DNA from: Gloeobacter violaceus PCC 7421
Lineage (GTDB): Bacteria > Cyanobacteriota > Cyanobacteriia > Gloeobacterales > Gloeobacteraceae
Direction: 5' to 3'
DNA length: 64,000 nucleotides
NCBI RefSeq assembly: GCF_000011385.1
Contig: NC_005125.1
Location: forward strand, 4,092,001-4,156,000
The position numbers were made by a program, and so were the translations under genes. The notes under the pieces were generated by a model. It was not told the DNA's origin. It worked only from the letters and a program-made list of their open reading frames with translations, and ran no database searches. Positions 259 through 14,069 of this stretch are shown here, one piece after another. Position 1 is the stretch's first letter, and each line of letters begins with the position of its first letter.

Positions 259-263
259 GGCTG

Positions 264-1313
264 TCACTTGAGCGGCGTGATCCCGGAGGCGGGTTTGTGG
301 CTGGCAAATTCAGGGGGCAGGTTGCGGGGACTGTCGGCGGCCGGAGCTTCCGCTTCGAGCAGTTCCGCCCCAGCGAGGGGCTGCTCCTGGATGACCGGCT
401 CGATCATCACCAGCAGCCGCTGGTCCTTGACCACCCGGTTGGAGGATTTGAACAGATCTCCCAAAATTGGAATGGCACTCAGCACCGGCACCCGGTACTC
501 GATATTCGCCTCGTCGTGGCGGGTGATCCCACCCAGCAGGGCGACGCCGCCGCTGTCGAGGCGCAAATTTGGGATATCGATCGAATTGGTATTGATCACC
601 AGGCCCTCCCCGGATCCCTGGGGATCGGAAAAATCGCCGCGCACCGAGATGGCGACCTGCTTTTTGGAGGGCAAGACCATCGGGGTGAGGTTGAGGGTGG
701 TGCGGGCGTTGATCGCCTGGGTAGAACTGAGGGCGGTGCCGTTGGAGACGATGGTCTGGGGAATGCGAAACTGGACATTCTGGCTGATGGTCGCCGTTTC
801 ACCGTCGCTGACCACCAGTTGTTGATCGATGAGCGTCTGCAGGGCGTTGACCTGCTGAAGCAGCTGCAGCTGTAGAACAATATTTGCAAATGTCAAAGTA
901 AGGGCGGAGCGGTTGGGCAGTACGCCGTTGTTGCCCAGAGGAGCGGTGCTCAAGGCCCCGGCCCCGGCCGCAAGCCCCGAGTACTGTGGAAACGTGCTGC
1001 CTCCCAACGCCCCGCCGTTGCCGAGATCCAGGCCGAAGCGGCCCATCGCCACCGGGCGGCCGAAGGCGTCGTAGGAACCGGAGGTGATCCCGGTGCCCAG
1101 GCTGAGGCCGCGTTCATTGGCGACGCTGTCGTTGACCAACAGCACCCGCAGCCGGATGACCACCTGGGCGGGAGCACTCAGCTTGTCGGAGACATAAATG
1201 ATGTTGCGGCTAGCCCGAGAGCGAAAGGCCCGAAAGCCGATGATTTCAAGAATTTCCTTGAGTTGGGCGTAAGCGTCGAGGCCCTGGAGGTTGCTGAAGC
1301 AAAAGCTTCCAAT
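264..1313 (-). pseudogene. Secretin gene, 3' fragment (C-terminal about 350 codons), separated from its 5' end by an inserted element
   Basis: This is the C-terminal part of a PilQ/GspD-type outer-membrane secretin. The frame has no start of its own: it runs back in frame through NLQGLDAYAQLKEIL and RNIIYVSDKLSAPAQVVIRL, and stays open past the recombination point at 1312-1313. The secretin core follows, with a beta-rich segment, GGVALLGGITR, and the family signature VPVLSAIPILGDLFKSS followed by DQRLLVMIEPVI. The 5' fragment lies 12.8 kb away at 14085-14453 on the same strand. Joining the halves at the shared AT gives a 472-residue secretin without a frameshift or stop. In the integrated state no full-length protein can be made. 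The downstream partial gene at 258 follows closely. This may be one of several secretin genes in the genome, so its loss need not be lethal. Confidence 0.9.
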
Positions 1314-1328
1314 AGTGGTAAAATTTTC
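1306..1328. other. attL: left junction of the integrated element
   Basis: The sequence TTCCAATAGTGGTAAAATTT marks the left junction. The crossover is placed at AT (1312-1313) because this is the only dinucleotide shared with attR (14083-14084) that keeps the secretin reading frame. Reading inward, both ends begin CCAAT (or its inverse) followed by a G-rich part and GTAAAA, as expected for imperfect half-site symmetry in serine recombinase sites. The assignment is inference from sequence; the exact crossover has not been observed. Confidence 0.7.
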
Positions 1329-1351
1329 CCAGTGTTAGACGGAGCCCGGGA

Positions 1352-2782
1352 ATGGGAAAGCTGGCGCGGTTGCCGATTGGTGCGGCGGGTCTGGTGTACG
1401 GGTATGCGCGCGTGAGCACTGCCGAGCAAGCGGACAGTCAGCACGCGCTTACTCAGCAGTGCGAGCGCCTGAAGCGGGCTGGGACGGATGAGCTTCTGAT
1501 TGATGTGCAGTCGGGCCGCAAGGATGACCGGCGCAACTTTCAGAAGCTGCTACGTCTGGCAGAGGGTGGGCATGTACGGGAAATCGTGGCGACGCGGCTT
1601 GATCGGTTGGGCCGCAACGTCCGGGCGATCCTGGAATTGGTGGACAAGCTTGACGATCTGGGTGTTGCCCTTCGCCTGCTGGATGAGAAGGTGGACACTT
1701 CCACCGCATCGGGGCGCATGTACCTGACGATCCGGGCTGCCGTCGATGAGCAAGAATCGCGTTTGTTGAGTGAACGGGTCAGCCACGGCATGAAACACCG
1801 GCGATTGCGGGGTGCGGCCCACCCGAAACCACCCTTCGGCTACCGTATGGGGGCAGACGATCGCTATGTGCTCAACGTGACGGCTTTGTGTCGTATTGCC
1901 GATCACTCCGAATGGACGATCGAGGGCATTGCGCGGTGGCTGATCGCCGAATTCTTGAGAACCGGCCGGGTGCGCGGCACCCTCAAAGGTTGTGTCGAGA
2001 TGTTCGGTTTCACTCCCTTCACCCACATTGGGTTTAGCGGGTGGCTTACCTCCCCTGCCTTGCGTGGTCACATCGTCTATGGCGACGGCACGACCTATCC
2101 CGACGCTCACCCGGCCTATCTGGATGCCGACACTGCCAGGGCGGCGAAGCTGGCCCTAGAGCGCGGCAAACAGCTCGGGGGGTGGGGAAGTGCGGAGGGG
2201 CCACGCAATCGCCCGCTGACCGGCCTGGTACGGTGCCCCCTCTGCAGTGGAGGCACCTACTACAGAGATCAGCGCACCCAGAGAAAGATGGCTGATGGCT
2301 CCACGAAGACGTACCGGAGGGAGTCCTACCACTGTTCGGCTGCGGGCCGCGAGGGCAGTTGCTCAAACACGAAAAGCGTCACCGTGGAATGCATCGAGGC
2401 CGCTATCGAGGCGGCATTGCGGGCAAAGGCCGTCGAACTAGCGTCCATGGTCTCGGCCGGTCTCGGGCAGCCGGTGGAGGAACCGGAGACGGTCAAGGCA
2501 CTGCGCGCGCAACTGTCGGCACTGGAAGCGATTCCCAACCCGGTCGGGGCGCTTCAAGATGCGATGGGCCATTTGCGCCGCCAGATCGATAATCTTTTGG
2601 GCGCGGCGGCGGGGGAACGCAAAGAAGCGGACCTCAAGGCCGAGCAGCTACATCAGGCGTTCGCTGATCCGGATTTCTGGGCGACGATTACCCAGGAAGA
2701 ACGGCGCACGGTTTACAGGGATCTCGTCCGCAAAATACTGATCGCCGGTGGCAAAGTGGTGGCCGTCGAACTGATGATCTGA
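1352..2782 (+). CDS. Large serine recombinase (site-specific integrase/excisionase, XisF-like)
   Basis: This 476-residue protein has the large serine recombinase layout. The resolvase catalytic domain (residues about 14-150) contains VYGYARVST with the nucleophile Ser22, and the arginine-rich helix near LDRLGRNVRAILELVDKL. A recombinase domain (about 155-290) follows. A zinc ribbon (about 296-345) has CPLC and later YHC and CSN cysteines, and the C-terminal helical region (about 350-440) is rich in charged heptads. It is expected to join attB and attP by double-strand breaks with a 2-bp overlap. The ATG at 1352 has GGAG 8 bases upstream. It lies 38 bases from attL, so its promoter must lie in the flanking secretin fragment when integrated, or at the opposite element end when circular. 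A terminator follows at 2812. It resembles XisF of heterocystous cyanobacteria in architecture. Confidence 0.93.
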   Translation: MGKLARLPIGAAGLVYGYARVSTAEQADSQHALTQQCERLKRAGTDELLIDVQSGRKDDRRNFQKLLRLAEGGHVREIVATRLDRLGRNVRAILELVDKLDDLGVALRLLDEKVDTSTASGRMYLTIRAAVDEQESRLLSERVSHGMKHRRLRGAAHPKPPFGYRMGADDRYVLNVTALCRIADHSEWTIEGIARWLIAEFLRTGRVRGTLKGCVEMFGFTPFTHIGFSGWLTSPALRGHIVYGDGTTYPDAHPAYLDADTARAAKLALERGKQLGGWGSAEGPRNRPLTGLVRCPLCSGGTYYRDQRTQRKMADGSTKTYRRESYHCSAAGREGSCSNTKSVTVECIEAAIEAALRAKAVELASMVSAGLGQPVEEPETVKALRAQLSALEAIPNPVGALQDAMGHLRRQIDNLLGAAAGERKEADLKAEQLHQAFADPDFWATITQEERRTVYRDLVRKILIAGGKVVAVELMI

Positions 2783-2811
2783 TACCGGCGCACCACCACC
2801 TGTAGCGCAGA

Positions 2812-2842
2812 AGCCCCCTGGATCGAGTCTGGGGGGCTTTTT
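2812..2842 (+). terminator. Rho-independent terminator after the serine recombinase
   Basis: AGCCCCC (2812-2818) pairs with GGGGGCT (2832-2838) around a partly paired loop, followed by TTTT (2839-2842). It sits 30 bases after the recombinase stop and isolates it from the downstream operon. Confidence 0.8.
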
Positions 2843-3018
2843 GCCGTGCAGGCATGGAGCGGAGACAAAATTCTCAGCAGAATTGCCGGATTGAGTGGTC
2901 CGGCGGCTTTATGCTCTGGATGTGGACAGAAACACCTGCCGATGTCCACAAAGCAAGTGACCAGCCGATACGAGACAGGCGCTAGTCGCCTTTCTGCTCA
3001 CCCACCCTTCTGGAGCTA

Positions 3019-3309
3019 GTGACCGTGAATGTAGCACCGATCGCCGAAGAAGATCAATCCCCCCAGCCCGTCTGGGTTGGCCCCTTTGCTGCCGCTAGGC
3101 ACCTCGGATACGCGTGCGCCCGATCCATGGAGCGTCTGCGCCCCCGGATGCCGGAGGGCATTTGCTGGGTCAAACTGAACTCCCGGACGGTCCGGTACAA
3201 CCTGGACGCGCTTGAGCTTTGGGCCGAGTGCCAGGGCTCCCCCGATGTGTGGGCGGCGGCCGTCGAAGAACTGCGCGCCCAACGCGCGGCCCGGGTAGGT
3301 GTGCTGTGA
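3019..3309 (+). CDS. Small winged-helix/excisionase-like DNA-binding protein (candidate recombination directionality factor)
   Basis: A 96-residue protein starts at GTG 3019, with TGGAG just upstream. Residues 20-70 read FAAARHLGYACARSMERLRP then WVKLNSRTVRYNLDALELW, the layout of MerR/excisionase-type winged helices: an HTH that starts with an alanine-rich turn, then a beta hairpin, then a tyrosine-containing line ending in ALELW. Small proteins of this kind next to integrases act as excisionases, AlpA-type activators or repressors. It is the first gene after the recombinase terminator and heads the replication gene group. I infer a directionality or regulatory role; the homology is only by motif. 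Confidence 0.7.
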   Translation: MTVNVAPIAEEDQSPQPVWVGPFAAARHLGYACARSMERLRPRMPEGICWVKLNSRTVRYNLDALELWAECQGSPDVWAAAVEELRAQRAARVGVL

Positions 3310-3398
3310 GCATCGCCAATCGACCCGAGACCGCGGCCGAGATCTTGCGACGCCGCGCCCGTGAATTTCTGGCCAGGAAATTAGCGGCAGCCGCCTGA
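3306..3398 (+). CDS. Possible 30-residue small protein overlapping the wHTH gene
   Basis: A GTG at 3306 overlaps the stop of the previous gene (GTGA) and opens a frame of 30 codons to TGA at 3396-3398. The product is helical and basic (EILRRRAREFLARKLAAAA). The translational-coupling overlap is the only support; it may be spurious. A hairpin follows at 3410. Confidence 0.35.
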   Translation: MSIANRPETAAEILRRRAREFLARKLAAAA

Positions 3399-3409
3399 CC
3401 TGCCAAAAC

Positions 3410-3435
3410 AAAAGCCCTCGATTCGCATCGGGGGC
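3410..3435 (+). terminator. Hairpin after the small wHTH genes
   Basis: AGCCCTCGAT pairs with ATCGGGGGCT around a TTCGC-type loop, with one G-U pair. No T-run follows (CATCAAATTG), so it is more likely an RNA-processing or attenuating structure than a strong terminator. It lies about 60 bases before the primase/helicase start. Confidence 0.5.
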
Positions 3436-3491
3436 TCATCAAATTGCTGTCAGAGATCAGCTCTTCCCCCCTCTCACAGAAGGAAAACCCG

Positions 3492-6011
3492 ATGCCTGCT
3501 TGTCTCCATTATAACTCAGAATCCGCCCCCCTGGCTGATTTGCACCGCGCCGAATTGATGGACTCCGCTATCCATCCCGGCATAATTGCCCTGAACTTCC
3601 GCACGATCGAAGATTCCCCGCCGACCGCCCACACAGATCCGGAATTCCCGATCGTAGAGTTTCTGGGCTGGAGGGCACCGGACAAAAAAACGCCTTACCG
3701 CCGAGGCTGGGCATGCCAGGGGCTGGACCCGTCCAAGGACTGGAAACCAATGGAATGGGGCTGCCTGAAGCTGGATACCGAGCACCAGCGAGAGAATCAC
3801 CAGAAGCCGGGCAAGCGGATCAAGTATGAGCACCCTTCTGGTCAACCCACCCGCGCCTTTTTCCTCGATGTACCGGCCGAGGTCGCTGCACTCGTTGCTG
3901 AGCGCGCCGGACTGGAACCACCAGCCGGGGCTTTCTGGCCGTGGGTACTCGCCAGCCGGTTGCCCATCGTCATCACCGAGGGAGCCAAGAAGGCTGCCGC
4001 CCTACTCTCCATCGGCCTGCCTGCGGTCGCTCTGCCGGGCATCTGGGGGGGCTGTCGCAAGGGTGACCGCAACGTCGCCGCTTCTCTGCGCGAGGATACC
4101 GCCCGGCTGGCGGATGCCGGATGCCCGATCCTGTTTTGTTTCGACAACGATGTGAAGGAGCGCACGATCCAGGATGTCAAAAACGCGATTCGCAAAACCA
4201 GCGCCCTGATTGTTGAGCGCGGGGGCCGGGCGGGAAAACTTGGATTCCCCGGTCCGCACAAGGGCATCGATGACTATCTCGCCGCCGATGTGACCCACGC
4301 CGACGCGCTGATTGCTGCCTACCACGAAGCGATAGCGGCACTCGACACGCCCCAGGAGGTAGAGGAGTCCGGCAAGCGTACCCGGCCATCGAGAGCGGAA
4401 ATCATTGCTGACATCCGACAGTTCTACCAGGGTCGGGTGCGCCGCAACCTACTGGGCGAGACGGTCGAACTTGATGGCAAGGAATGGGGCGGGATGGACC
4501 GCGCCTATCTCGACCTGGCGACCGAGCAGGGCATCGAGGCGGCCAAAGAGTTCGTTATCGATGTGCTGGCTGGACTCGCCGATGAGAACGCCTACAGCCC
4601 CGTTGAGCAGTACCTCAAGAATGTGTACGCGCTGCACCAGGACAAGACCGTCCACCTGCTTGATGATCTGGCGTTCCGCTACTTTGGCACGGATGACCCG
4701 CTGCACAACACCTATTTGCGCCGGTGGCTGGTGGGAGCCGTGGCGCGTGTCCGCCGCCCGGGTTGCAAGTTCGATCTGACCCTGATCCTTAAGGGTCGCC
4801 AAGGCGTTGGGAAGTCTTCCTTCTTTCGAATTCTCGGCGGCACCTGGTTCTCTGACTCGATGGCGCAGATCGACAACAAAGACGATCTGATGGTGATGCA
4901 CCGCGCCTGGATCAACGAGTGGGCGGAACTGGAGAACGTCACCGGGCGGCGCGATATCAGCGAGGTGAAATCCTTCCTCACTCGCCAGGAGGATGCCTAC
5001 CGGCGGCCCTACGCGAGGGATACAGTCCCACATCCCCGCCGGTCTGTGATCGTGGGCACCACCAACCGCGATGAGTTTCTTGCAGACGAAACAGGAGATC
5101 GGCGCTTCATGGTCGTCCCAGTCCACCAGCAGATCGACTTCGCCCAGTTGGGGGCCGAGCGCGATGCCATATGGGCGGCGGCAGTGGATTTGTTCCTGAA
5201 GGGCGAGCCGTACTACCTGACGGCCGCCGAGACCGCCTTGCAGGCGCGGGCCAACGAGACGTATGCCGTCAGCGATAGCTGGGAGGAGAAGATCCTTCCC
5301 TATCTGGCGCATCGCACGGAGGTAACCACTTCGGAGATTCTTGAGCGCGCACTGGGTATCGAGGCCGGGCGACACACCAACCCCGATCAAAAACGTGTCG
5401 GCATTATCCTGCGCCGCCGGGGCTGGGAATCAGTCCGAACCAAAGCGCGCCGCTACTGGCGCCCCCCGGGAGAAGGTGACGGGGTGACGGGGGAGAATGC
5501 GGGTCCCGTCACCCTCCCGTCACCACCTGAAATCCAGTCAACGCAAGTCTTTCAGCCTGCTGGTGACGGGGTGACGGGAGAAACTACTAAAACTCTCCCA
5601 GAGAGATCAAAGTCTTATGAGAACCAGGGATTACATAAGAGTTTTGATTCTCCGGTCCTATTAAAGAATTCTCCCGTCACCTCCCGTCACCCGTCACCGG
5701 AAAAGCGAGTGACGGGTCTCCCGGATGCTCCGTCTCCAGAGCCTGAAATGCCCGCCAGGACTACCGATCAGGCAGATCCCCCCGTTTCCCTGAGCGAGGG
5801 CGACCGGGTGACGCTGACAGATCTGGCATCACTCCCCCGAACTCACGCTCACCTGACCGTGGGTGTCCTGGGCACGGTAGCCAAAGACTGCCCCGCTCTC
5901 ATGGCTCTCGTGGGAATCCGATTCGACGGCGAGCAGGACGTGGCGCGAGTGAAAAGAACCAGCCTTGCCCTTGTGTCTCCCGACAGTCAACCGACCGACG
6001 ACGATTTTTGA
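3492..6011 (+). CDS. Primase-helicase replication initiator: DUF3854 (TOPRIM-like) plus VapE/SF3-like ATPase
   Basis: The ATG at 3492 has AGAAGGA upstream and is preferred over the earlier in-frame ATG at 3444; the product is 839 residues. The N-terminal third has the DUF3854 features (LPIVITEGAKKAAALLSIG, then a FDNDV acidic motif and KGIDDYLA), a TOPRIM-like module found in plasmid and island primases. The central part is a VapE-type helicase with Walker A GRQGVGKSSF (encoded near 4796-4825), Walker B INEWAELE (near 4912), and a sensor/arginine segment TTNRDEFLADETGDRRF. The C-terminal 200 residues are low complexity. Their DNA carries a cluster of octamer iterons. Together this is a self-contained replication module like those of SaPI-type islands. 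Confidence 0.88.
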   Translation: MPACLHYNSESAPLADLHRAELMDSAIHPGIIALNFRTIEDSPPTAHTDPEFPIVEFLGWRAPDKKTPYRRGWACQGLDPSKDWKPMEWGCLKLDTEHQRENHQKPGKRIKYEHPSGQPTRAFFLDVPAEVAALVAERAGLEPPAGAFWPWVLASRLPIVITEGAKKAAALLSIGLPAVALPGIWGGCRKGDRNVAASLREDTARLADAGCPILFCFDNDVKERTIQDVKNAIRKTSALIVERGGRAGKLGFPGPHKGIDDYLAADVTHADALIAAYHEAIAALDTPQEVEESGKRTRPSRAEIIADIRQFYQGRVRRNLLGETVELDGKEWGGMDRAYLDLATEQGIEAAKEFVIDVLAGLADENAYSPVEQYLKNVYALHQDKTVHLLDDLAFRYFGTDDPLHNTYLRRWLVGAVARVRRPGCKFDLTLILKGRQGVGKSSFFRILGGTWFSDSMAQIDNKDDLMVMHRAWINEWAELENVTGRRDISEVKSFLTRQEDAYRRPYARDTVPHPRRSVIVGTTNRDEFLADETGDRRFMVVPVHQQIDFAQLGAERDAIWAAAVDLFLKGEPYYLTAAETALQARANETYAVSDSWEEKILPYLAHRTEVTTSEILERALGIEAGRHTNPDQKRVGIILRRRGWESVRTKARRYWRPPGEGDGVTGENAGPVTLPSPPEIQSTQVFQPAGDGVTGETTKTLPERSKSYENQGLHKSFDSPVLLKNSPVTSRHPSPEKRVTGLPDAPSPEPEMPARTTDQADPPVSLSEGDRVTLTDLASLPRTHAHLTVGVLGTVAKDCPALMALVGIRFDGEQDVARVKRTSLALVSPDSQPTDDDF
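5476..5716. repeat. Ten GTGACGGG iterons flanking an AT-rich stretch (candidate replication origin)
   Basis: Exact copies of GTGACGGG occur on the plus strand at 5476, 5484, 5563, 5571 and 5709, and on the minus strand (CCCGTCAC) at 5505, 5516, 5673, 5683 and 5690. Most are in tandem pairs 8 to 11 bases apart, in alternating orientation. The copies fall in different codon phases and on both strands, so they are conserved as DNA rather than as peptide repeats. An AT-rich stretch at about 5580-5672 lies between the two main groups. This matches the architecture of SaPI-type origins, where initiator-binding iterons flank a melting region next to or inside the initiator gene. Origin function is inferred. 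Confidence 0.75.
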
Positions 6012-6055
6012 CTCACTGACAAAAGCTGACAAAACCCCTCACCAGGAGACTGACC

Positions 6056-6283
6056 ATGAACGCCCCGATCCACTTCGCCGAGACCGACAGCGGTCCCCGC
6101 GGACCGAAACGCTTCCAACTCACCGAACCCAAGATTCCCCGCGGCACTCGGGTCACGTTGGCCTCCGATCCAACCCGCCGGGGAGAGGTGCGAGTAGCTG
6201 CCGCTGACGGCATGCTGCTGACACTCTGGGCAGATTACACCTGTAGCATCCACCACCCTTCTGAACTGGAGGCGCAACCGTGA
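6056..6283 (+). CDS. Small hypothetical protein (element)
   Basis: This 75-residue protein starts at ATG 6056 with a good site (CAGGAGAC) upstream. The centre (TRVTLASDPTRRGEVRVAAADGMLLTLWADYTCSIHHPSELEA) looks like a small beta-barrel/KOW- or SH3-like fold: alternating strands with a Gly-Glu-Val turn. A related-looking segment (GDRVTLTDLASL) occurs in the C-terminal tail of the preceding primase-helicase protein. No function can be assigned. The next gene starts at GTG 6280 overlapping its stop, so they are translationally coupled. Confidence 0.7.
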   Translation: MNAPIHFAETDSGPRGPKRFQLTEPKIPRGTRVTLASDPTRRGEVRVAAADGMLLTLWADYTCSIHHPSELEAQP

Positions 6284-6723
6284 ATCGATTGACGCGTCCG
6301 GTCCGCCGCCCCCAGCTGCCCGAACCGACGGCCCACCACGGGCTACTCGCCGACGATCTGCACTTCCTGATCGCCCACCTCCGTCGCGAAAGCAAACAGC
6401 ACCAGACCGCATCGAAGCGATTCGCCCGTGCCGGCAGTCTCGACATCGCCCGGTACTTCCATGAGACCGGCCGGCGCTTATGGGCGATCGCTGAGGTACT
6501 CGCTGACGAAACCCCCGCCAGCCCAGCCACGGCGCCGCCAGACAGGCCAATTGCCCCGACAGGTGGAACGCACGTCCCAATTCCCCGAGACCCGTCATGG
6601 TCTACCCCGAGAGGCCGCTACCCGGGACCACCGCCTCACGCAATGGGGTCGCCCAACCTACTGAGACAATCACCGCAAAGGAGGACAACCGGTCATGACC
6701 AAAGTCGGAGAAGTGTTTTTTGA
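6280..6723 (+). CDS. Hypothetical protein with helical N-terminus and Pro/Arg-rich tail (element)
   Basis: The GTG at 6280 overlaps the stop of the upstream gene (GTGA), supporting translation. Residues about 20-75 form a helical segment (HHGLLADDLHFLIAHLRRESKQ, then RYFHETGRRLWAIAEVLADE). The remainder is proline- and arginine-rich and may be disordered. The last 28 bases overlap the next gene at 6695, which has a stronger ribosome site. The tail might therefore be non-functional extension after a lost stop; the helical half is the better supported part. Unknown function. Confidence 0.5.
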   Translation: MNRLTRPVRRPQLPEPTAHHGLLADDLHFLIAHLRRESKQHQTASKRFARAGSLDIARYFHETGRRLWAIAEVLADETPASPATAPPDRPIAPTGGTHVPIPRDPSWSTPRGRYPGPPPHAMGSPNLLRQSPQRRTTGHDQSRRSVF

Positions 6724-6970
6724 TATCACCGCGCGCACCGATGGCCTGGACACCGCGTTCGATCGGGCAAGGCGTGACGCCGATGCGACCGGCCGATCCG
6801 TAAGCGGCGCCCTCGGACCCGACGTTGCCGACTTCCTTCGCCAGTGTGCCCGGCTACTCAACGAAAAAGCCAGCGAGATCGAATCGGCCGACGCCATCGA
6901 CGACGAAAGTCACTGCGCACCAGCCGGATCGGTCCAACCCGCCCACTACTCACAGGAGCAATCATCATGA
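6695..6970 (+). CDS. Small protein resembling the N-terminus of phage tail tape-measure proteins
   Basis: The ATG at 6695 is preceded by AAAGGAGGAC, the best ribosome site in the element. The first 35 residues (GEVFFDITARTDGLDTAFDR...) fit the short repeat that opens many tail tape-measure proteins: hydrophobic-Asp-Ile-x-Ala followed by a helix. At 91 residues it lacks any hydrophobic or coiled body of a tape measure. It could be an interfering fragment acting on a helper-phage tail, a decayed gene, or a coincidental similarity. The stop overlaps the ATG of the next gene (ATGA at 6967). Confidence 0.6.
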   Translation: MTKVGEVFFDITARTDGLDTAFDRARRDADATGRSVSGALGPDVADFLRQCARLLNEKASEIESADAIDDESHCAPAGSVQPAHYSQEQSS

Positions 6971-7197
6971 CACCCAAGGAGCGCAAGGAAATCGAACGGG
7001 TGATGCGCGACGCCCGCGCCCAAATCCGCGAACTACTCTACACCGCCGACCAATGTGACCAGCGAGGTTTCACGGATGGAGCTGCCCAACGCTTTCGGGC
7101 CCTCGCCACAACCTTGCAGGGAGCGATCGCCCGACTGCAGGCCGACCTAGACGCGGACCATGTCGCTACTGCAATGCCCCCGGAGAGCGGGGTTTAG
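6967..7197 (+). CDS. Small helical hypothetical protein (element)
   Basis: This 76-residue protein begins at ATG 6967, inside the stop of the previous gene, with CAGGAG nearby. It consists of two amphipathic helices (ERKEIERVMRDARAQIRELLYTA and AAQRFRALATTLQGAIARLQADLDAD) separated by a glycine turn, which would form a helical hairpin or coiled-coil dimer. No catalytic motif is visible. Position suggests a role in the satellite's late or regulatory operon; no assignment is possible. Confidence 0.6.
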   Translation: MTPKERKEIERVMRDARAQIRELLYTADQCDQRGFTDGAAQRFRALATTLQGAIARLQADLDADHVATAMPPESGV

Positions 7198-7199
7198 CA

Positions 7200-7730
7200 T
7201 TGTCGTGTCGCTCAGTGTCGCCTAACGTGTCGCCCTCCTGTCACCCGCCCTCATCCATCCATGTCCGGCAAAAAGCCATCGCCCTTCTTGCTGGTGGCGC
7301 CACCATGGCCGATGTCGCTCGGCAAATCGGCGTCGCCGAGCGCACCCTCCAGCGATGGATGAAAAGACCTGATTTTGCCGCCGAGGTCGAACATTCCCGA
7401 ACCACGCAGACCCGCGCCGTCGCAAAGGTGACAGCCGAAGACTTGGGTAGGCAGTACGCCGCGCTCTTGCCTCTCGCTCTGAGCACAATCCATGAATTGA
7501 TGACCGACGCCAGGACAAAGCCGGAAGTGCGCCTGCGGGCGGCCGTCCAAACACTCACCCTCGCCGGTCTGGCACTCCGACAGGCTGTCGAACCGGCTAC
7601 CGCGCCGAGCTATGTGGCCGTTTTGCCGGAGGAGGACGATCGGGATTGGTCGGACCCGAATAAACCCAAGTTCATGACCAAAGAACGCCGGGACGCGGTC
7701 ATGGAGGCGGCCTTTTTGGATCTGGGCTGA
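7200..7730 (+). CDS. HTH protein resembling phage terminase small subunit (TerS-like)
   Basis: The frame opens at a TTG at 7200, two bases after the previous stop; the start is uncertain because no ATG or GTG lies early in frame. The N-terminal HTH reads RQKAIALLAGGATMADVARQIGVAERTLQRWMKRPDFAAEVEHSR, the pattern of phBC6A51-type terminase small subunits, in which the HTH is followed by a residue line on the growing chain. A long helical segment follows (LGRQYAALLPLALSTIHELM...). The C-terminus ends ...ERRDAVMEAAFLDLG. No large terminase is present. In PICI/SaPI satellites a TerS homologue redirects helper-phage packaging; this is the inference here. A transposase-like or regulatory HTH is the alternative. 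Confidence 0.6.
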   Translation: MSCRSVSPNVSPSCHPPSSIHVRQKAIALLAGGATMADVARQIGVAERTLQRWMKRPDFAAEVEHSRTTQTRAVAKVTAEDLGRQYAALLPLALSTIHELMTDARTKPEVRLRAAVQTLTLAGLALRQAVEPATAPSYVAVLPEEDDRDWSDPNKPKFMTKERRDAVMEAAFLDLG

Positions 7731-7853
7731 GTAGTTCGAGCTACAGCAATGCCCCCCAAGATCGGCATGCATACTAGGTTTCACTGGCTTCCTGCTCCCC
7801 TTCCCCCCGTAGCCAGAGTCCAAGATCACTCCTCATTTTCTGGAGACAGCACG

Positions 7854-8210
7854 ATGAGTTATCAAAATCAAGGCCCGACACAGGACGCAAATATCCGCGC
7901 GTTTGCCGCTCAAATGCTGGATGTCCTGAAGACCGCCCAAAAGAACGGGACGAGTCCTCGTCAAGCTCTCGAAAAAACGCTGACCGAATACGCGACCGAT
8001 CCGCAAATCGACGACGCACCGGCACCGAACTACATGGCCTCGGTGGATGCTGCCCTCAAGACGGCCAATCCCCCGAGCAAAAAGCAGACGGTACCGGCCA
8101 AAAATCCGAATATCAATGACCAGGGCGCCCCGATGGTCATCAGTCGTCGTGATGCCAAGGGCATCGGCCGGGCAATCGAATCAAAGAAACCTTTCGTATT
8201 GGGAGATTAA
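7854..8210 (+). CDS. Hypothetical protein (element), possible structural/capsid-associated small protein
   Basis: The ATG at 7854, 11 bases after CTGGAGAC, is preferred over upstream in-frame starts; the product is 118 residues. It has a helical N-terminal half (ANIRAFAAQMLDVLKTAQKNG..RQALEKTLTEYA), a polar middle and a C-terminus with RRDAKGIGRAIESKKPFVLGD. No signal peptide or transmembrane helix. I recognise no family. It is followed six bases later by the next gene, so the two are one transcription unit. Confidence 0.65.
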   Translation: MSYQNQGPTQDANIRAFAAQMLDVLKTAQKNGTSPRQALEKTLTEYATDPQIDDAPAPNYMASVDAALKTANPPSKKQTVPAKNPNINDQGAPMVISRRDAKGIGRAIESKKPFVLGD

Positions 8211-8216
8211 TCAATC

Positions 8217-8888
8217 ATGCACGTCATCGACAAAAAGACCGCTGACAAACGGGTTGCCTGCCGCCCCGTCAAGTTGCGCGATCTCACTGAGTCGGCCCGT
8301 GCCGAACAGAAGCAGCGCTTCGAAGATCATCTTCGTCACTACCGCCCGGAGTTGCTTGAGGCCGACCCCGAGGCCGCCAAGTTGCAGCGGGAACTGGTAG
8401 CCACCCAGGGCAAAATCGAGAGTCTCAAGGTCGTCCTGATCGAACTGGGCCGGCAGTTGGTTGCCGCGGGAGAACCGGATCTTTCCGCACCCGAGACCTT
8501 CACTGTGGAATCGTTCATCACGGCTGGTCAGTCTGCTGCCCCCGCTGCTCTGACCCGCATCGCTCTGAATGATTCCATCTCGCGTGCCGAGGCCGCACGG
8601 TCCAAAGCGGAAGCCCACCGCGCCTCGCTGGAGGTTCAAATCCAGTCGGCCCACGATGCCCGTAAAGCAGCGATCCGGGCTGAGTACATCGAGTATGCCC
8701 CGAGCCAAATCCAGGCCGCTAGCGCCGCCCTGGCAGTGCTGATGGGCACTTTGGTCGATGAGCACAACTACATGGCGACTACCTCTGTCGATCGCGAAGT
8801 TCGCTTGCCTCATGCCATGCTCGACGGCGTTGCCCTGAGTGTTGCCGGTTGGCGCGACATCGTCCAGTTCGCACGGGAGGGCCGCTAG
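8217..8888 (+). CDS. Coiled-coil hypothetical protein (element)
   Basis: This 223-residue protein starts at ATG 8217, six bases after the previous stop. Residues 20-90 and 125-180 are strongly helical and charged (ARAEQKQRFEDHLRHYRPELLEADPEAAKLQRELVATQG; SISRAEAARSKAEAHRASLEVQIQSAHDARKAAIRAEYIEY), typical of a long coiled coil. It could be scaffold-like, a size-redirecting protein or an anti-phage/anti-host regulator. No motif allows a choice. Its base composition matches the rest of the left half of the element. Confidence 0.7.
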   Translation: MHVIDKKTADKRVACRPVKLRDLTESARAEQKQRFEDHLRHYRPELLEADPEAAKLQRELVATQGKIESLKVVLIELGRQLVAAGEPDLSAPETFTVESFITAGQSAAPAALTRIALNDSISRAEAARSKAEAHRASLEVQIQSAHDARKAAIRAEYIEYAPSQIQAASAALAVLMGTLVDEHNYMATTSVDREVRLPHAMLDGVALSVAGWRDIVQFAREGR

Positions 8889-8890
8889 CC

Positions 8891-9211
8891 ATGAGTTGGA
8901 AAGGAGTGTCGGCCGATCCGAATCCCCGGAATCGCAAGGCTATCACTTTCAGCCCGGAATTCCTGGCGAAGCGGGCGAGTGGAGAGCGGATCATAGACTT
9001 CCGCCTGGCTCTGAGTTCAGACTTTATTTCTCGTCCGAAGGACCTCACGAAGGCCCGATTCATCGCCACGATGATCGAAAACTATGCATGCTCGCACCAG
9101 ATGCGAATCACCGACGTGTATCCCGACGCATTCGAAGCGGTCCGCCGGAAGGGTTTGCACACGGCTGCCCTGGAAGCGGAAGTGCGCCGGTTGCTGGAGA
9201 TGACGGATTGA
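8891..9211 (+). CDS. Small basic hypothetical protein, last gene of the element's left operon
   Basis: The ATG at 8891 follows the preceding stop by two bases, with GGAGGG upstream; the product is 106 residues. It is basic and mixed alpha/beta, with SKxRFIATMIENYACSHQMRITDVYPDAFEAVRRKGLHTAALEAEVRRLLEM at the C-terminus, resembling a small HTH or three-helix unit. No assignment. A very strong terminator follows at 9239, closing the operon that starts near 3019. Confidence 0.65.
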   Translation: MSWKGVSADPNPRNRKAITFSPEFLAKRASGERIIDFRLALSSDFISRPKDLTKARFIATMIENYACSHQMRITDVYPDAFEAVRRKGLHTAALEAEVRRLLEMTD

Positions 9212-9238
9212 AAGTTTGTGCTGTCAACGCAAGGTCTT

Positions 9239-9274
9239 GAGGCCAGTGGAGTGATTCCACTGGCCTCTTTTTTT
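9239..9274 (+). terminator. Strong rho-independent terminator closing the element's left operon
   Basis: GAGGCCAGTGGA (9239-9250) pairs perfectly with TCCACTGGCCTC (9256-9267) around GTGAT, followed by seven T residues (9268-9274). This is the clearest terminator in the window and separates the replication/packaging-like genes from the accessory half. Confidence 0.92.
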
Positions 9275-9393
9275 GGCGCGACGTGGGCGTTACATCACCC
9301 CCGCGACGTTGACCGGCGGGGCGGCTGGCAGACGGGGGAGGTATGAACGGCCGTCCTTGGATTGTCGCTTGTATGGCCCTTGGGAGAACTGGC

Positions 9394-10080
9394 CTACTGC
9401 TGAGTGTCTAGACCGCCATCGCCGGGTGCTTCTCTGTCTATCTCTTTAAGAACCCGATCAAAAAACTGTTCAAGTTCAGACGGAAAAGGAAGCTCTAACG
9501 AAAACACATCCTCCTCCTTGAGAAACCTATTGGTAGGTGGGCCATTCTTGAAATACTTCTTATAATCTTCTGGTTTCCTGGGAATGGGGTACCGTCCGTA
9601 CCAAGTAGTTAACTGCTCCATATCCTTAAGTAAATTTTCCTCCTCAGACGAAAGATCCATCTTTGCGGTTTTGGCCAACTTTTTTAGGTCGTGGTGATTT
9701 ATATCCGAACCTCCCGAATTACTATCTTTTTTACGCATCGCCAGCTCTTTAAGTAGGACCAGCTCTTTAAGTAGGTTTTCGAGAGCTAGTGCGACCAAAA
9801 AAAAGCCTACGGAAGAGAAGCTAAGATAATTTCTTATCGTCTTTTGTTCCTCAGGAGTACAGTGAACTACACTTAAACCACGGATAGACTCATAGAGGGT
9901 TTTGGCTTTAACCTGCTCATTCGCGGCTTCTTTCAAGAGAAGCTCGGCTGCATCGTACAACGACGCAGCCGAGCTTCTCCTCGCCATTGGCTGGGAGCAA
10001 GCTGACTCGAAAAAAAAGTCGATAACTAGATCTGGATCTTGGCTATAATCCACCTGTTGATTTCCCACAGAAATTTCCAT
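9394..10080 (-). CDS. HEPN-like domain protein (accessory gene of the element)
   Basis: The ATG at 10080 (MEISVGNQQ) is the likely start; a longer frame to 10167 has no ribosome site. The 228-residue product has, after residue 100, a long helix SVGFFLVALALENLLKELVLL, then HHDLKKLAKTAKMDLSSEEENLLKDMEQLTTWYGRYPIPRKPEDY. The ALE-x2-LK helix, the HDL..L motif and the GRYP turn are typical of HEPN-fold proteins near toxins and defence genes. The RNase RxxxxH motif is not obvious, so activity is unproven. The gene is AT-richer than its neighbours and in opposite orientation, which suggests recruited cargo. An 18-bp tandem duplication (9737-9772) repeats the peptide ELVLLK. Confidence 0.65.
   Translation of the reverse strand: MEISVGNQQVDYSQDPDLVIDFFFESACSQPMARRSSAASLYDAAELLLKEAANEQVKAKTLYESIRGLSVVHCTPEEQKTIRNYLSFSSVGFFLVALALENLLKELVLLKELAMRKKDSNSGGSDINHHDLKKLAKTAKMDLSSEEENLLKDMEQLTTWYGRYPIPRKPEDYKKYFKNGPPTNRFLKEEDVFSLELPFPSELEQFFDRVLKEIDREAPGDGGLDTQQ
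9737..9772. repeat. 18-bp tandem duplication inside the HEPN-like gene
   Basis: The unit AGCTCTTTAAGTAGGACC is followed at once by AGCTCTTTAAGTAGG, so the segment is repeated twice in frame and lengthens one helix by six residues. Looks like slipped replication. Confidence 0.7.
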
Positions 10081-10146
10081 ATGACTAAGTTGACTTTTTC
10101 TGTCGAATTGTAGCATAGAAGCCTCAACCACACAGTCGGTTCTCAC

Positions 10147-10371
10147 AGGGCAAGCGCATCTTAACAATGCTTGACAGATTCAAAATTGCGTGAAATTCCT
10201 GTGAGAAGAAGGCTTAAGGCTTCTGGATTAAGGTTGCGGATGCTGGATTGTTAAGCACGATGCACAAGATTTTTCTTGCTTCCCCGTCTCAGATCTGGCA
10301 TTGAATCCATGCGTGGCACTCAACTCAGGCGAAACCACTTTTGTCAAGAGGAGATTAGATGCGCTTGCCCT
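10147..10371. repeat. 15-bp inverted repeat in the gap between HEPN-like and regulator genes
   Basis: AGGGCAAGCGCATCT (10147-10161) and its exact reverse complement AGATGCGCTTGCCCT (10357-10371) bound a 195-bp gene-free stretch. The right arm is followed by CGGTTCTCAT, which partly matches the sequence beside the left arm. Could be a remnant of a small non-autonomous insertion. Confidence 0.5.
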
Positions 10372-10635
10372 ATCGGTTCTCATCGATTAGAAGTTAATGT
10401 CCAGAGCACACATGTTTGTCTCGATCTTAGTGCTTGTAAGCTGAGGAAAAACCTGGTTGTTTGCCATAGAAAATGCTCCGTCTTGAGCAAAGGGGCTGTC
10501 GCACCAAAGTTCATAGAGAAGCACAGCCCGCTACTCGACGGCAGCCGCACAAGTGGAAGGGTCTGAATTTTTTTCAGACCCAGGCGGCAAACAGGCGACT
10601 CAGCCAATGTCACCGGTGACATCCCGGGGACAGCG
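10168..10635. other. 468-bp stretch without a supported gene
   Basis: It holds one arm of the inverted repeat ending at 10371 and a short hairpin (GGGTCTGA/TCAGACCC, 10559-10581, loop of A and T). A 96-codon frame at 10276-10566 has a cysteine-scattered, low-likelihood product and no ribosome site, so I do not call it. Confidence 0.5.
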
Positions 10636-11055
10636 CTAACCTACTAAGGCTGGCTGCCTCAGCGCGTAAACCTTCAAGGGCTTCTCGATCACGACAATAC
10701 GGCCATCTGCCACCAGTCTGTTAAGCACGGCCAGACAACGATCGATGTCGGGGCCGAGTCCATCCGCACGATCGAAGCTGCGGGCGTCGCATATCTGCGA
10801 GAAACTGTATTCCCCGCTCACTGCCAACCGTTCGAGTATGCCCGCTGCATTGTCGTGGCGGACGATAGCGTAGAGCTTCTTGCCTCCCCGTCCGGCAGCC
10901 TCACGTCCGCGTCTGACTACGCCGTCCATCACCAAAGCATGGAGCACCCGCGCCGTAGCCAGTTCGCTCAGGCGGATACCGGCAGCAATGTCCTGCAAGG
11001 TGCCTATTTCGTACTCGCACAGATAATCCACAACATCAGACCGGGGGCATTGCAT
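10636..11055 (-). CDS. Winged-helix transcriptional regulator-like protein
   Basis: The ATG at 11055 has TTGGAGAC 8 bases upstream, better than the first frame start at 11103; the product is 139 residues. Two successive winged-helix-like units are visible: DVVDYLCEYEIGTLQDIAAGIRLSELATARVLHALVMDGVVRRGR, and a second half with ICDARSFDRADGLGPDIDRCLAVLNRLVADGRIVVI. It has no catalytic residues. It lies divergently from the toxin-antitoxin pair across an AT-rich region with overlapping dyads (11116-11150), which may be its operator. A repressor of the element's accessory genes is the simplest inference. Confidence 0.65.
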   Translation of the reverse strand: MQCPRSDVVDYLCEYEIGTLQDIAAGIRLSELATARVLHALVMDGVVRRGREAAGRGGKKLYAIVRHDNAAGILERLAVSGEYSFSQICDARSFDRADGLGPDIDRCLAVLNRLVADGRIVVIEKPLKVYALRQPALVG

Positions 11056-11115
11056 GTCTGTCTCCAATGGGTTGGGTTTGCCTCCCAAGGCTAGCGCGAA
11101 CACCTTAGAAAGCCA

Positions 11116-11150
11116 AATTAGTAATTACTTATCGAATTTGATAACTAATT
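11116..11150. promoter_or_regulatory. AT-rich overlapping dyads upstream of the regulator gene (candidate operator)
   Basis: TTATCGAATTTGATAA (11129-11144) is a near-perfect 16-bp palindrome. AATTAGT (11116-11122) and ACTAATT (11144-11150) form an exact outer inverted repeat with a different centre. The site sits 60-95 bases before the leftward regulator start and 220 bases before the rightward antitoxin. An autoregulatory role is inference from location. Confidence 0.5.
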
Positions 11151-11369
11151 GCTGTGCCCTCTGTGCCTGTGTCTTGCTGCCTGTGATTGAAATACTTGTG
11201 TGTCAGGGGAGCAGTCAATCACCGCACTAGGCTGCCCCTAAGAGGCGGTGGCAAACTTGACCCAAAAAGCGCTTTACATATTTCTATAATGAACTAGATG
11301 TTCACAAAGATATGGACAGGCGTAGTCACATGGGGTTACAATGGTCTCCCAAGTTGCCCTTAGCAAAGA

Positions 11370-11807
11370 GTGAGAAAGATGGGTACAGCTGATGACGCCG
11401 CTGCATATATTTTGAACAAGCTTGGCGCAATAACAGCTATGAAGTTGCAAAAGCTTCTATACTACTCCCAAGCTTGGTCTCTTGTGTGGGATGATCATCC
11501 TCTGTTTGATGAGCGTATTGAGGCGTGGGCCAACGGACCTGTGATACCCGCCATCTACGAGCAGCACAGGGGGCAGTACCTGGTGACCGAGTGGTTGGCA
11601 GGCAATCCTGGTAACTTAGGCTCTGACGCCATCGAAACAATTGATGCCGTTCTCAAAGTCTACGGGGACAAGTCCTCCCAATGGCTCAGTGACTTGACCC
11701 ACAAGGAGGCTCCTTGGCGCGATGCCCGCTTGGGCATTCCAACTGGTGTTCCCTGCAAACAAGAGATCACACAGGCATCCATGGCAGAGTACTACGGCAG
11801 CTTGTAA
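11370..11807 (+). CDS. Panacea-domain (SocA-like, former DUF4065) antitoxin
   Basis: This 145-residue protein starts at 11370, though the internal ATG at 11379 (MGTADDAAAYIL) is also possible. It shows the Panacea signature: DDAAAYILNKLGAITAMKLQKLLYYSQAWSLVWDDHPLFDERIEAWANGPVIPAIYEQH, then KSSQWLSDLTHKEAPWRDAR. Proteins with this domain neutralise varied toxins as the first gene of a two-gene operon or act as proteolysis adaptors (SocA). The gene that follows 7 bases later is the expected toxin. A toxin-antitoxin pair would stabilise the element in its host and penalise loss after excision. Confidence 0.85.
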   Translation: MRKMGTADDAAAYILNKLGAITAMKLQKLLYYSQAWSLVWDDHPLFDERIEAWANGPVIPAIYEQHRGQYLVTEWLAGNPGNLGSDAIETIDAVLKVYGDKSSQWLSDLTHKEAPWRDARLGIPTGVPCKQEITQASMAEYYGSL

Positions 11808-11814
11808 AACGTCT

Positions 11815-12276
11815 GTGAGCCAAGGAAAGAATAAAAAAACTAAGGATCCCAAAATTACTGAGAAGCCTTCCTCGGCTAAGACGCCGCGCTTCGGTAACGA
11901 CCCAGATGAGTTTTACACACTCTCTCCGGCATGGCGACTTTCGAAGTTAGAGATGGTTGAGCCCTTTGGTTGGCATAAGGTCGATGGTGCTACTCTTGCT
12001 TCTATTAGAAGCAAGTTGGCATCTTTCGAAAGCATGACCTGGAAAGAAATCCTTTGCGATGCAAGCACGAAAAATCACTTCATTGGAGTTGATCGGCTTT
12101 GTCTCGAAGCACGGCAGCGCCTCGAAGAAATAAAACAAGGCGATATCGACCAGTTGATGTCTCTCAGGCTTGGTGGCAAGCAGAGAGTTTGGGGCATTGT
12201 GGACCAGGGCATCATGACAGTGCTCTGGTGGGATCCAGATCACAAAGTCTACCCAGTTAATAAAAAGCACACTTGA
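11815..12276 (+). CDS. Probable toxin partner of the Panacea antitoxin
   Basis: The GTG at 11815 (VSQGKNKKTK) is 7 bases after the antitoxin stop and gives 153 residues. An upstream ATG in this frame lies inside the antitoxin and is rejected. The C-terminal 75 residues read HFIGVDRLCLEARQRLEEIKQGDIDQLMSLRLGGKQRVWGIVDQGIMTVLWWDPDHKVYP, a RelE/ParE-like small alpha-beta pattern (helix, then strand-rich R-x-W-G-I and LLWWDP motifs) that I have seen paired with Panacea antitoxins. The N-terminal 45 residues are lysine-rich. The type of target is unknown; I infer an RNase- or translation-directed toxin. Confidence 0.72.
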   Translation: MSQGKNKKTKDPKITEKPSSAKTPRFGNDPDEFYTLSPAWRLSKLEMVEPFGWHKVDGATLASIRSKLASFESMTWKEILCDASTKNHFIGVDRLCLEARQRLEEIKQGDIDQLMSLRLGGKQRVWGIVDQGIMTVLWWDPDHKVYPVNKKHT

Positions 12277-12475
12277 TGCAGCTACAGCTATTCCCGTCGC
12301 CCGAGCCGGGGCCGTTCCCTCACCCGCCCGGTGAACTTATGCCGTGGGTAGAGCCCCTATTCAACCGGGCCGGGGCCGTGCAGACGCAGGAGCGGGGCGA
12401 GCGGCATCAAAAGCTTCACCCTCCCCGAGCGGCTTCCTAGGAGCGGCGGAGGTGCTATCTGCCGGTGATCGAGAT
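12277..12475. other. Gene-free stretch between the toxin and the small membrane protein
   Basis: About 200 bases with GC-rich inverted segments (CCGGGCCGGGGCC-like) and the first copy of the 16-bp repeat (12468-12483). A 63-codon minus frame across it has no plausible product. Confidence 0.4.
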
Positions 12476-12760
12476 CTAGGGCAGGCCAAACACCGCTTCC
12501 AGCCATAGCATGATCCACACGAGCATCCCCGCCAGCAGCACCAGCCAAAGCATCGCGCTCAGCGCAGCCTGACGGCGTGCGTCGAAAAGATCGGGGGCGA
12601 AGCGCCGGTAGCCGTCGATTAGGAATGCAGCAGGCAGCAGGACCGCCAGAAACAGGCCCACGGCGATGATCTGAGCTGTGTCTGTTAACCTCTCCGCAAG
12701 CCTATGATAAGGCGACTGGTGAGCAGATGCCAAGAAAAATGCTGACTTATGTTGCAACAC
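12476..12760 (-). CDS. Small membrane protein (element)
   Basis: The frame encodes 94 residues; the true start may be an internal GTG near 12664, as the first 30 residues look unlike protein. Two hydrophobic helices are clear: IIAVGLFLAVLLPAAFLI and LWLVLLAGMLVWIMLWLEAV, joined by a charged loop with YRRFAPDLFDARR. It ends LP-stop in the same TAG-containing 16-bp sequence as the other membrane gene at 13631, suggesting a shared origin of their 3' ends. Function unknown. Confidence 0.5.
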   Translation of the reverse strand: MLQHKSAFFLASAHQSPYHRLAERLTDTAQIIAVGLFLAVLLPAAFLIDGYRRFAPDLFDARRQAALSAMLWLVLLAGMLVWIMLWLEAVFGLP

Positions 12761-12814
12761 AGTTTCTGGGGAAGGACGTTAGAGGCGAAGTTGTGTCAGG
12801 ACATAGGTGCTGCC

Positions 12815-13054
12815 CTAGAGATGGTATGCAGTGACAACTGTCTTCATGTCTTGGCTGTAAATTGCGGCCACCTTCCTGTGCTGCAGGTGTATCCAAGAAA
12901 CCATGCGCCGCCCTCCCTGGGCTGGCATTGCACTGGTCTTGATATAACCAACCTGTAACAACAGCCCCTCAAATTGCGTTGCTGACATAACTTTGGTATT
13001 GAACGGGGGAAGACCGTCAAGACGATGCTTATCAAGAGTCATGTACTCAATCAT
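12815..13054 (-). CDS. Small hypothetical protein (element right end)
   Basis: Starts considered are ATG at 13054 (MIEYMTLDKHRLDG) and TTG at 13072; neither has a strong ribosome site. The 79-residue product ends with MVSWIHLQHRKVAAIYSQDMKTVVTAYHL, a strand-strand pattern similar to short DUF4258- or HicA-like toxins (K-x-A-A-I-Y then K-T-V-V-T). This similarity is weak. It is AT-richer than the host genes. Confidence 0.45.
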   Translation of the reverse strand: MIEYMTLDKHRLDGLPPFNTKVMSATQFEGLLLQVGYIKTSAMPAQGGRRMVSWIHLQHRKVAAIYSQDMKTVVTAYHL

Positions 13055-13105
13055 AATGGGTGCACGACTCAAGCCTTCGTGCCAAAGAAATGTCTTCTTT
13101 TCTTC

Positions 13106-13396
13106 CTAGGCGTCAAAGTCGCCCCGATACGTTGTAAAGATCCTGTAACCCGGCAAAACAATTCCTGCGCCGAACCAGCTTTTCACTGTGCCCGGATAAT
13201 TCGGTTCCGCTATCGATCCACCAATGCGGACATGAAAAGGACCAGCCCAGACATACAGCCCAGGCAAAAGCGCATCCATACTGTAGGCGATTGCTCGCTT
13301 CTCAGAGCATGGCTCGCACGCGTCATTAACCCGCTCACCCGCATCGTTTAGTGTGCCAGGGCGGGAACCTCTGAATCCGCCGTATACATGAGACAT
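13106..13396 (-). CDS. Hypothetical protein (element right end)
   Basis: The ATG at 13396 has GGAG 8 bases upstream and gives 96 residues; the frame extends upstream but without a good site. The C-terminal half is strand-rich with many aromatic and glycine residues (LLPGLYVWAGPFHVRIGGSIAEPNYPGTVKSWFGAGIVLPGYRIFTTYRGDFDA). Two cysteines are present (ACEPC). No family recognised. It sits between two membrane-protein genes that share 3' sequence. Confidence 0.45.
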   Translation of the reverse strand: MSHVYGGFRGSRPGTLNDAGERVNDACEPCSEKRAIAYSMDALLPGLYVWAGPFHVRIGGSIAEPNYPGTVKSWFGAGIVLPGYRIFTTYRGDFDA

Positions 13397-13630
13397 AGGT
13401 GTAACTCCGTGTTCGTGCCTCTCAGCCGCATTGCCAACGGGTAGCATCTCCACCGGGCAAGGCGGGATGGCCTCATATGACATATGACGTCTTACTAAGA
13501 TACTACCGATCACGGCTCGAAGTTCTACACCCAAGAGAGAAGTTCATATTGAAGGTGCAAGTCACTCATCCAAAACAGGGTTTCAAATGCGCACCCCATA
13601 AACACCCAGAAGTTTTGCGGTAATCGAGAT

Positions 13631-13948
13631 CTAGGGCATACCGATCATTCCACTCAGCGCGGCCACCCCCAACCCGATGAGGGCACCGCACATCGCCGGT
13701 TGAATCGCCTCCAGCACTTCCGGTCCGAACAGCCCAAACCATTCCGCCAGCACGTACCCGCCCAGCAGTGCGACGGTTGTCGAGACGATCAGGCCGGTGA
13801 TCATGCCCGGCAGCAGCATACCCAGAGCGAGGGCCGTACCCAGCCCGACAATCATCCCCCAGATCAAAGCGGGAGCGCCCGAGTAGCGCCGCCAGGCTGC
13901 CGCGATGACCACGGCCGAGATGATCAGCGATGCAGTGGTCCAGAACAT
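13631..13948 (-). CDS. Small integral membrane protein with 3-4 helices (element right end)
   Basis: The ATG at 13948 gives 105 residues, almost all hydrophobic: MFWTTASLIISAVVIAAAW, PALIWGMIVGLGTALALGMLLPGMITGLIVSTTVALLGGYVLAEW, and MCGALIGLGVAALSGMIGMP. Glycine zippers suggest packed helices, as in holins or small channel proteins. It is 18 bases downstream of the 33-residue membrane peptide gene and on the same strand as the interrupted secretin, so secretin-promoter transcripts would run into it. Confidence 0.65.
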   Translation of the reverse strand: MFWTTASLIISAVVIAAAWRRYSGAPALIWGMIVGLGTALALGMLLPGMITGLIVSTTVALLGGYVLAEWFGLFGPEVLEAIQPAMCGALIGLGVAALSGMIGMP

Positions 13949-13966
13949 GCCCTCAGAATAATCCCC

Positions 13967-14068
13967 TCAGCGCAGCAACCCGACCTGCACCAGCCCCCAG
14001 AGCAGGAGTACCCCGAGCGTTGCCGGAATGGGCGAAAGGGCAAGCGCCCAGATATCCTTGTGCTTCAT
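13967..14068 (-). CDS. 33-residue single-helix membrane peptide at the element's right edge
   Basis: An ATG at 14066-14068 opens 33 codons ending TGA at 13967. The product MKHKDIWALALSPIPATLG.. has a single hydrophobic helix (LGVLLLWGLVQVGLLR). It begins 15 bases inside attR and directly continues the transcript of the truncated secretin. It could be a holin-like, toxin-like or regulatory micropeptide. It is too short for ordinary gene callers. Confidence 0.5.
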   Translation of the reverse strand: MKHKDIWALALSPIPATLGVLLLWGLVQVGLLR

Positions 14069-14069
14069 G

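Follow-up and report, generated by a model that had tools for sequence, protein, structure and literature searches.

Directionality factors (RDFs) of serine integrases are few and, according to the part of PMC5311408 available, hard to predict, which limits reversible genome-engineering switches. The known small RDFs of that text span 58-110 aa, and RDFs of serine integrases have little sequence in common and differ in size and gene position. Examples in the accessible sections of PMC4111918 and PMC5311408 are Rv1584c (73 aa), ORF7 (64 aa) and phiJoe gp52 (62 aa), whose gene adjoins int; the RDF genes of phiRv1 and SPBc lie within 1-2 ORFs of int. Two serine-integrase RDFs, gp3 and gp47, contact the enzyme, and attP sites in a table of large serine recombinases are 34-52 bp long (both from excerpts of PMC4111918). 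In tyrosine systems, winged-HTH (wHTH) excisionases bind att DNA together with the integrase and also regulate promoters (PMC5882170 and PMC11963761, each in extract). RdfS of ICEMlSym-R7A (8dgl) is a small, integrase-linked wHTH protein of the MerR type; its partner is the tyrosine integrase IntS and, as described in the portion of PMC11963761 at hand, it has an extra N-terminal oligomerisation helix. The fdxN element, with XisF and XisH/XisI, interrupts a cyanobacterial gene, and two accessory genes are needed for its excision (PMC4874684, abridged text).

The DNA analysed here, called the window, comprises 64 kb at positions 4,092,001-4,156,000 of contig NC_005125.1 of Gloeobacter violaceus PCC 7421. 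Window positions 1-1300 and ~14085/14089-18774 are contiguous in two genomes of the same genus (G386 and G388) at 94-97% identity, and the comparison with sister genomes together with the junctions delimits an integrative element at 1297..14101. This mobile element of ~12.8 kb interrupts a secretin gene: the C-terminal part (PF00263) is located at 264..1300 and the N-terminal part, with the start MHIRTLPLV, at 14098..14453, on the minus strand in each case; two sister genomes (loci L034 and L035) have the gene intact. The two junctions have only AAGC in common (attL, 1297..1300; attR, 14098..14101), and excision at this core would restore the secretin gene. Three further secretin matches are present in the same genome. 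The element is thus like the fdxN element in that it interrupts a cyanobacterial gene, but unlike it in carrying a wHTH protein in place of XisH/XisI: Pfam includes families for both, and none of their models matched the 96-aa protein described below or the other scanned ORFs of the element.

The recombinase ORF begins ~50 bp inside the left end and encodes a large serine recombinase of 476 aa (1352..2782, plus strand) with a Resolvase domain (PF00239, E 1.2e-34), a zinc ribbon (PF13408, E 6.6e-9) and a PHROG integrase match (E 5.2e-61); PF07508 was matched only below the Pfam cut-off, and viral contigs gave one distant match (25%). Large serine recombinases follow a two-base crossover rule. 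In attP, reconstructed by joining the element ends, 16 of 25 pairs are symmetric around the AA of the core (the next centres reach 13 and 10), and attB has no comparable symmetric centre (best 10 of 25). Both features, a core of only AAGC and a palindromic attP of ~50 bp, agree with a large serine recombinase.

Phage-inducible chromosomal islands follow a gene plan of integrase, small wHTH, primase-helicase and TerS-like gene. The gene set of the present element resembles that of such a phage satellite: within its ~12.8 kb it has an integrase, a small wHTH protein, a primase-helicase and a TerS-like HTH protein (7200..7730, plus strand; phrog_2538, E 4.7e-11). It differs from these islands in having a serine recombinase and in sitting in a protein gene. 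PHROG scans of the element revealed no other convincing structural gene. At 11370-12276, a SocA/Panacea antitoxin-like gene (PF13274, E 2.8e-19) overlaps an ORF with weak NsnC similarity (PADLOC, E 1.1e-4), and the pair is a possible toxin-antitoxin or defence cargo. A literature search returned nothing on the present element, about which reports may still exist in print.

The small wHTH gene of the element had been proposed, in a sequence-only reading of this DNA, to encode the RDF of the serine recombinase. Its 96-residue ORF is present as described there (3019..3309, plus strand, GTG start), 236 bases downstream of the recombinase ORF. Another in-frame GTG at 3025 is better spaced from the GGAG at 3012-3015, so that the product may be 94 aa long. 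Homologues elsewhere and a GC3 of 0.74, like that of the neighbouring recombinase (0.72) and primase (0.70) genes, indicate that the ORF is not merely due to chance. The terminator that the same reading had placed between the two genes was also recovered as a hairpin followed by a U run (2811..2843, plus strand; arms 2811-2818/2832-2839); the fold of 2800-2850 has -29.7 kcal/mol and a z of -4.4, and a simple scan did not list this hairpin. Since such a strong terminator-like structure separates the wHTH gene from the recombinase gene, it probably has its own promoter within 2844-3018, a stretch for which the simple scan listed none. Upstream of the gene lies a perfect 8-bp inverted repeat, TGTGGACA-14-TGTCCACA (2921..2950), the sole such pair in the 64 kb and found in 0 of 100 shuffles, which may be an operator.

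The position at the head of a replication operon, also suggested earlier, holds in part. The wHTH gene precedes, on the same strand, the gene for a primase-helicase with DUF3854 and VapE-like domains (3444..6011; Pfam, PHROG), but the likely start ATG of the latter at 3492 leaves a gap of 182 nt. This gap contains a putative 30-aa ORF (3306..3398, plus strand), whose GTG overlaps the wHTH stop codon and which is possibly translationally coupled to the wHTH gene, and a stable hairpin (3413..3436, z -4.0). A search for att-arm repeats, in the form of 9-mers and near 12-mers common to element ends and intergenic regions, gave nothing convincing. The att ends have no exact 9-mers in common with the intergenic region that precedes the wHTH gene; near 12-mers shared by this region and the right end numbered 14 versus 4.35 in mononucleotide shuffles, and the wHTH-primase gap shares 3 exact 9-mers with the right end versus 0.6 in shuffled sequence, both being counts from overlapping windows with a crude control.

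Used alone as a query, the window protein had matches at E <= 0.01 in six other cyanobacterial genomes out of 386 (seven with its own), the best in another genome at E 8.7e-9; the six include a doubtful match in G118 (E 0.005, internal stop). At least 80 of 124 pattern-matched stretches from named genomes (genome_contigs) were confirmed by tblastn with the window protein (best E 2e-8, relative to those stretches), and a profile that includes the window protein found the family in 27 of the 386 genomes at E <= 0.001, the weakest of these matches being short. Family members are 79-139 aa long, with start codons picked by script. Alignment A2, which like A3 consists of the window protein and 39 of the 80 tblastn loci listed, has the invariant residues R39, E46, W50, N54, R56, Y60, W68 and A81, the window protein itself being one of its rows, and identity of the window protein to the other 39 members is 23-33%.

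Excisionase models were matched, weakly to moderately, by the relatives. Among the ten members of alignment A1, two of which are nearly identical, seven matched phrog_539 'excisionase' (best E 2.7e-6), six phrog_66 'excisionase and transcriptional regulator' (best 1.6e-6), six phrog_23175 'excisionase' (best 0.007) and four the Pfam family DUF1233 'putative excisionase' (best 0.0017), all at E <= 0.1. In this the family is like the DUF1233/phrog_539 excisionases, whereas the window protein itself matched neither of them at E 0.1, nor any other Pfam, PHROG or NCBIfam model at this threshold; its homology to excisionases is seen through relatives only, and it joins the family by single-sequence search. 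The best match of the family profile among PDB sequences was the RDF RdfS (E 0.0035), followed by ribosomal S16 proteins (0.027 and 0.042). A search of PDB sequences with the window protein alone gave a chance match only. Phage and plasmid records held no match to the window protein or to a central family member, and viral contigs none to the family alignment. By sequence similarity, the 96-aa protein is a member of a cyanobacterial family of small Xis-like (MerR/HTH_17-type) winged-HTH proteins.

The wHTH fold assigned earlier to the 96-aa protein is predicted with confidence for the family and less so for the protein itself. Since the model of the window protein (pLDDT 63) gave no usable fold match in the PDB and nothing of note, the central family member L097 was modelled (pLDDT 86); both models have the helix/strand order H-H-E-E-H-H. 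With the family model, Foldseek ranked 2kvv first, the two chains of 8dgl (RdfS) second and third, and then 4j2n and 8c3t; all of these are excisionases or RDFs, at E 0.016-0.22 and none below 0.001. The best structural match, the putative excisionase 2kvv, had a VIA Z of 7.1, which is tied with the 6.5 of MerR regulators, and RdfS reached 5.3. The family model thus has an excisionase-type winged-HTH fold that MerR regulators share, so that fold alone cannot separate an excisionase from a regulator.

This bears on an alternative in which the protein does no more than regulate transcription (Cox/AlpA-like) of the primase operon, the recombinase gene or both, and the RDF is another protein or does not exist. 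Besides the shared fold, the perfect inverted repeat upstream of the wHTH gene is consistent with it, and wHTH excisionases are described as activating other promoters and binding their own (RdfS; portions of PMC5882170 and PMC11963761). Where promoters steer excision, a regulator of this kind overlaps with the broader proposal, favoured below, that the protein controls the state of the element.

The gene neighbourhoods speak against regulation alone. A tyrosine integrase (PF00589) is encoded within 3 kb of 18 of the 23 other family members versus ~0.3 expected, an association far above chance. Downstream of the integrase on the same strand, the wHTH gene is found in ten of these 18 cases; in the other eight the two are convergent, tail to tail, an arrangement in which an operon role is not obvious. 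This count covered 24 members including that of the window (E <= 2.8e-8) from 16 genomes, several with more than one member, and took in 22 of the 37 matches of the profile search and two of three further ones. Of 43 resolvase matches, 19 were used; the others lie on contigs that lack a family member, apart from one that is the second piece of a match already used. Serine recombinases were found within 3 kb of none of the 23 other members; only the window member has one.

The same picture emerged from the 80 tblastn loci listed, some of which were placed at a standard match position: a tyrosine integrase is within 3 kb in 46 and a serine recombinase in none. That the recombinase neighbours of the family elsewhere belong to the other class is the most telling fact about this protein, and it was absent from the sequence-only reading. 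Among the loci examined, the family is paired with a serine recombinase just once, and a protein inherited from tyrosine systems need not work with a serine recombinase.

The single pairing also fits a leftover of an earlier tyrosine-integrase module that has no present role in excision, as does the divergence of the window protein from its 39 aligned relatives. Such a leftover is improbable, as the ORF is intact, its GC3 is like that of its neighbours, and the conserved family residues are present, although the window protein contributed a row to the alignment that defines them.

The link of the family to integrases is not exclusive: in 31 of the 80 loci listed the retrieved DNA shows no tyrosine integrase, and among the 46 whose flanks exceed 3 kb in both directions, only 22 have one within that distance. 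Other recurrent neighbours among the 80, whose names come from scanning a single representative of each, are a DUF3987 replication protein (15 loci, downstream), an S24-type repressor (14 loci, upstream on the opposite strand) and a small HTH_35 protein (11 loci); the first two are what would be expected beside a regulator. A further group of neighbours, cluster 4, is encoded upstream of the wHTH gene in 14 of the 80 loci (including L071, L072 and L076; median 383 aa) and occurs in ten of the 31 loci that lack a tyrosine integrase. A hidden integrase was rejected for this group (hhalign probability 0.1), and nothing was found in Pfam at E 0.01 or in PDB searches. Visual inspection suggests an actin-type partition protein; should that hold, some family members reside on elements that segregate, and a regulatory role would gain weight.

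A locus in the same genus (L150 in G387) has the same gene order as the window element. There, a tyrosine integrase (6986-8128), a wHTH gene (8796-9074; phrog_539, E 0.0056) and a primase-helicase gene (9301-11436) are followed by a homologue (41% over 56 aa, E 1e-5) of a 147-aa ORF of the window element (6280..6723, plus strand) and by a TerS-like HTH gene (12804-13313). The wHTH protein of G387 is joined to that of the window through the family profile only (E 1.6e-20 and 1.3e-23); blastp from the window protein did not retrieve it at E <= 1. In G392 and at L262, tyrosine integrase, wHTH and primase genes occur in this order with other ORFs in between. The primases of G387 and G392 (AAA_25/phrog_239) are of another family than that of the window. 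The position of the wHTH gene ahead of replication genes hence persists with either recombinase class and with different primase families, an arrangement that suits a regulator. The loci of the 20 best-scoring relatives of the window primase hold a tyrosine integrase in nine cases, a serine recombinase in none and a family member in three (L250, L262 and, weakly at E 0.0069, L264). Exchange of the recombinase module in the window element would be the simplest history.

Relatives of the window recombinase are found in 23 of the 386 genomes, its own included (E <= 1e-20). We fetched 20 regions that cover 22 of the 28 other matches, and none of these 20 loci has a family member nearby (best E 0.93); identity to these recombinases is only 27-44% across the aligned portion, which makes this a weak test of the partnership. 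The element and the surroundings of these relatives have no neighbours in common except the recombinase and, in L211, the primase, and clustering of the neighbours revealed no obvious RDF. At three loci the related serine recombinases (L192, 5326-7697; L193, 5091-7249; L197, 6236-8362) adjoin Mg-chelatase-like fragments, which we take to be ComM-like; all three have PF01078, plus PF13541 or PF13335. The group may hence favour insertion in protein genes, possibly competence-related ones.

Another gene of the element could encode the RDF, for example a 75-aa ORF (6056-6283), a wHTH-like ORF on the minus strand (10636-11103), the TerS-like ORF at 7200-7730 or an unscanned small ORF; this would be compatible both with regulation alone and with a leftover. 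The variety of serine integrase RDFs in homology, size and place, as stated in the part of PMC5311408 cited above, leaves room for such a gene, and the ORF at 7200-7730 weakly matches phrog_66 'excisionase and transcriptional regulator' (E 0.014), although its matches to terminase small subunits are stronger. This was the only other excisionase-like match among the 19 scanned ORFs of the element, none of the rest matching an excisionase, XisH or XisI model, which also counts against regulation alone. The argument is weak because homology is a poor guide to known RDFs, and we consider an RDF encoded elsewhere in the element unlikely.

To summarize, the proposal that the 96-aa protein is the RDF of the serine recombinase stands in so far as the protein has Xis-like relatives and a predicted Xis-like fold, lies in the same element as the serine integrase, adjoins its gene, and has a length within the range of known small RDFs. 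In being a small protein encoded 1-2 genes from a serine integrase it is like Rv1584c of phiRv1 and gp52 of phiJoe, to which we liken it by size and position only (PMC4111918 and PMC5311408, in part). The proposal is weakened by the pairing of the family with tyrosine integrases elsewhere, and by the lack of family members at the 20 loci of recombinase relatives and of serine recombinases at the 80 family loci listed. We favour the broader reading that the protein steers the excision or replication state of the element by some route, with a probability of roughly 0.55. That it does so directly, as the RDF of the present serine recombinase, we rate somewhat short of even odds, and regulation alone is nearly as likely.

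How a protein of this family would have come to direct a serine recombinase can be outlined as follows. The ancestors of the wHTH protein would have worked with tyrosine integrases. A large serine recombinase would then have taken over from the earlier recombinase module, with the wHTH gene remaining in front of the primase gene. Upon induction of the element, the wHTH protein may be made from its own promoter and bind DNA near this promoter and the element end; contact with the serine recombinase would favour recombination of attL with attR. Excision would free the element beside its primase and restore the secretin gene.

Tentatively, we extend this to the family: one RDF family would serve both recombinase classes, and an Xis-like protein kept through the integrase swap would now direct a serine enzyme. 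Under this extension, held with the same reserve, the protein would either have acquired a new protein contact or have always worked via the DNA and promoters of the element.

The defined recombinase, the exact att sites and one strong RDF candidate make up a three-component system. If the protein does act as the RDF, gene order in satellite-like elements could be used to look for RDFs, and the retention of an RDF through a change of recombinase class would be open to direct study. As excision would restore the secretin gene, control of the direction of recombination could have a consequence for the host.
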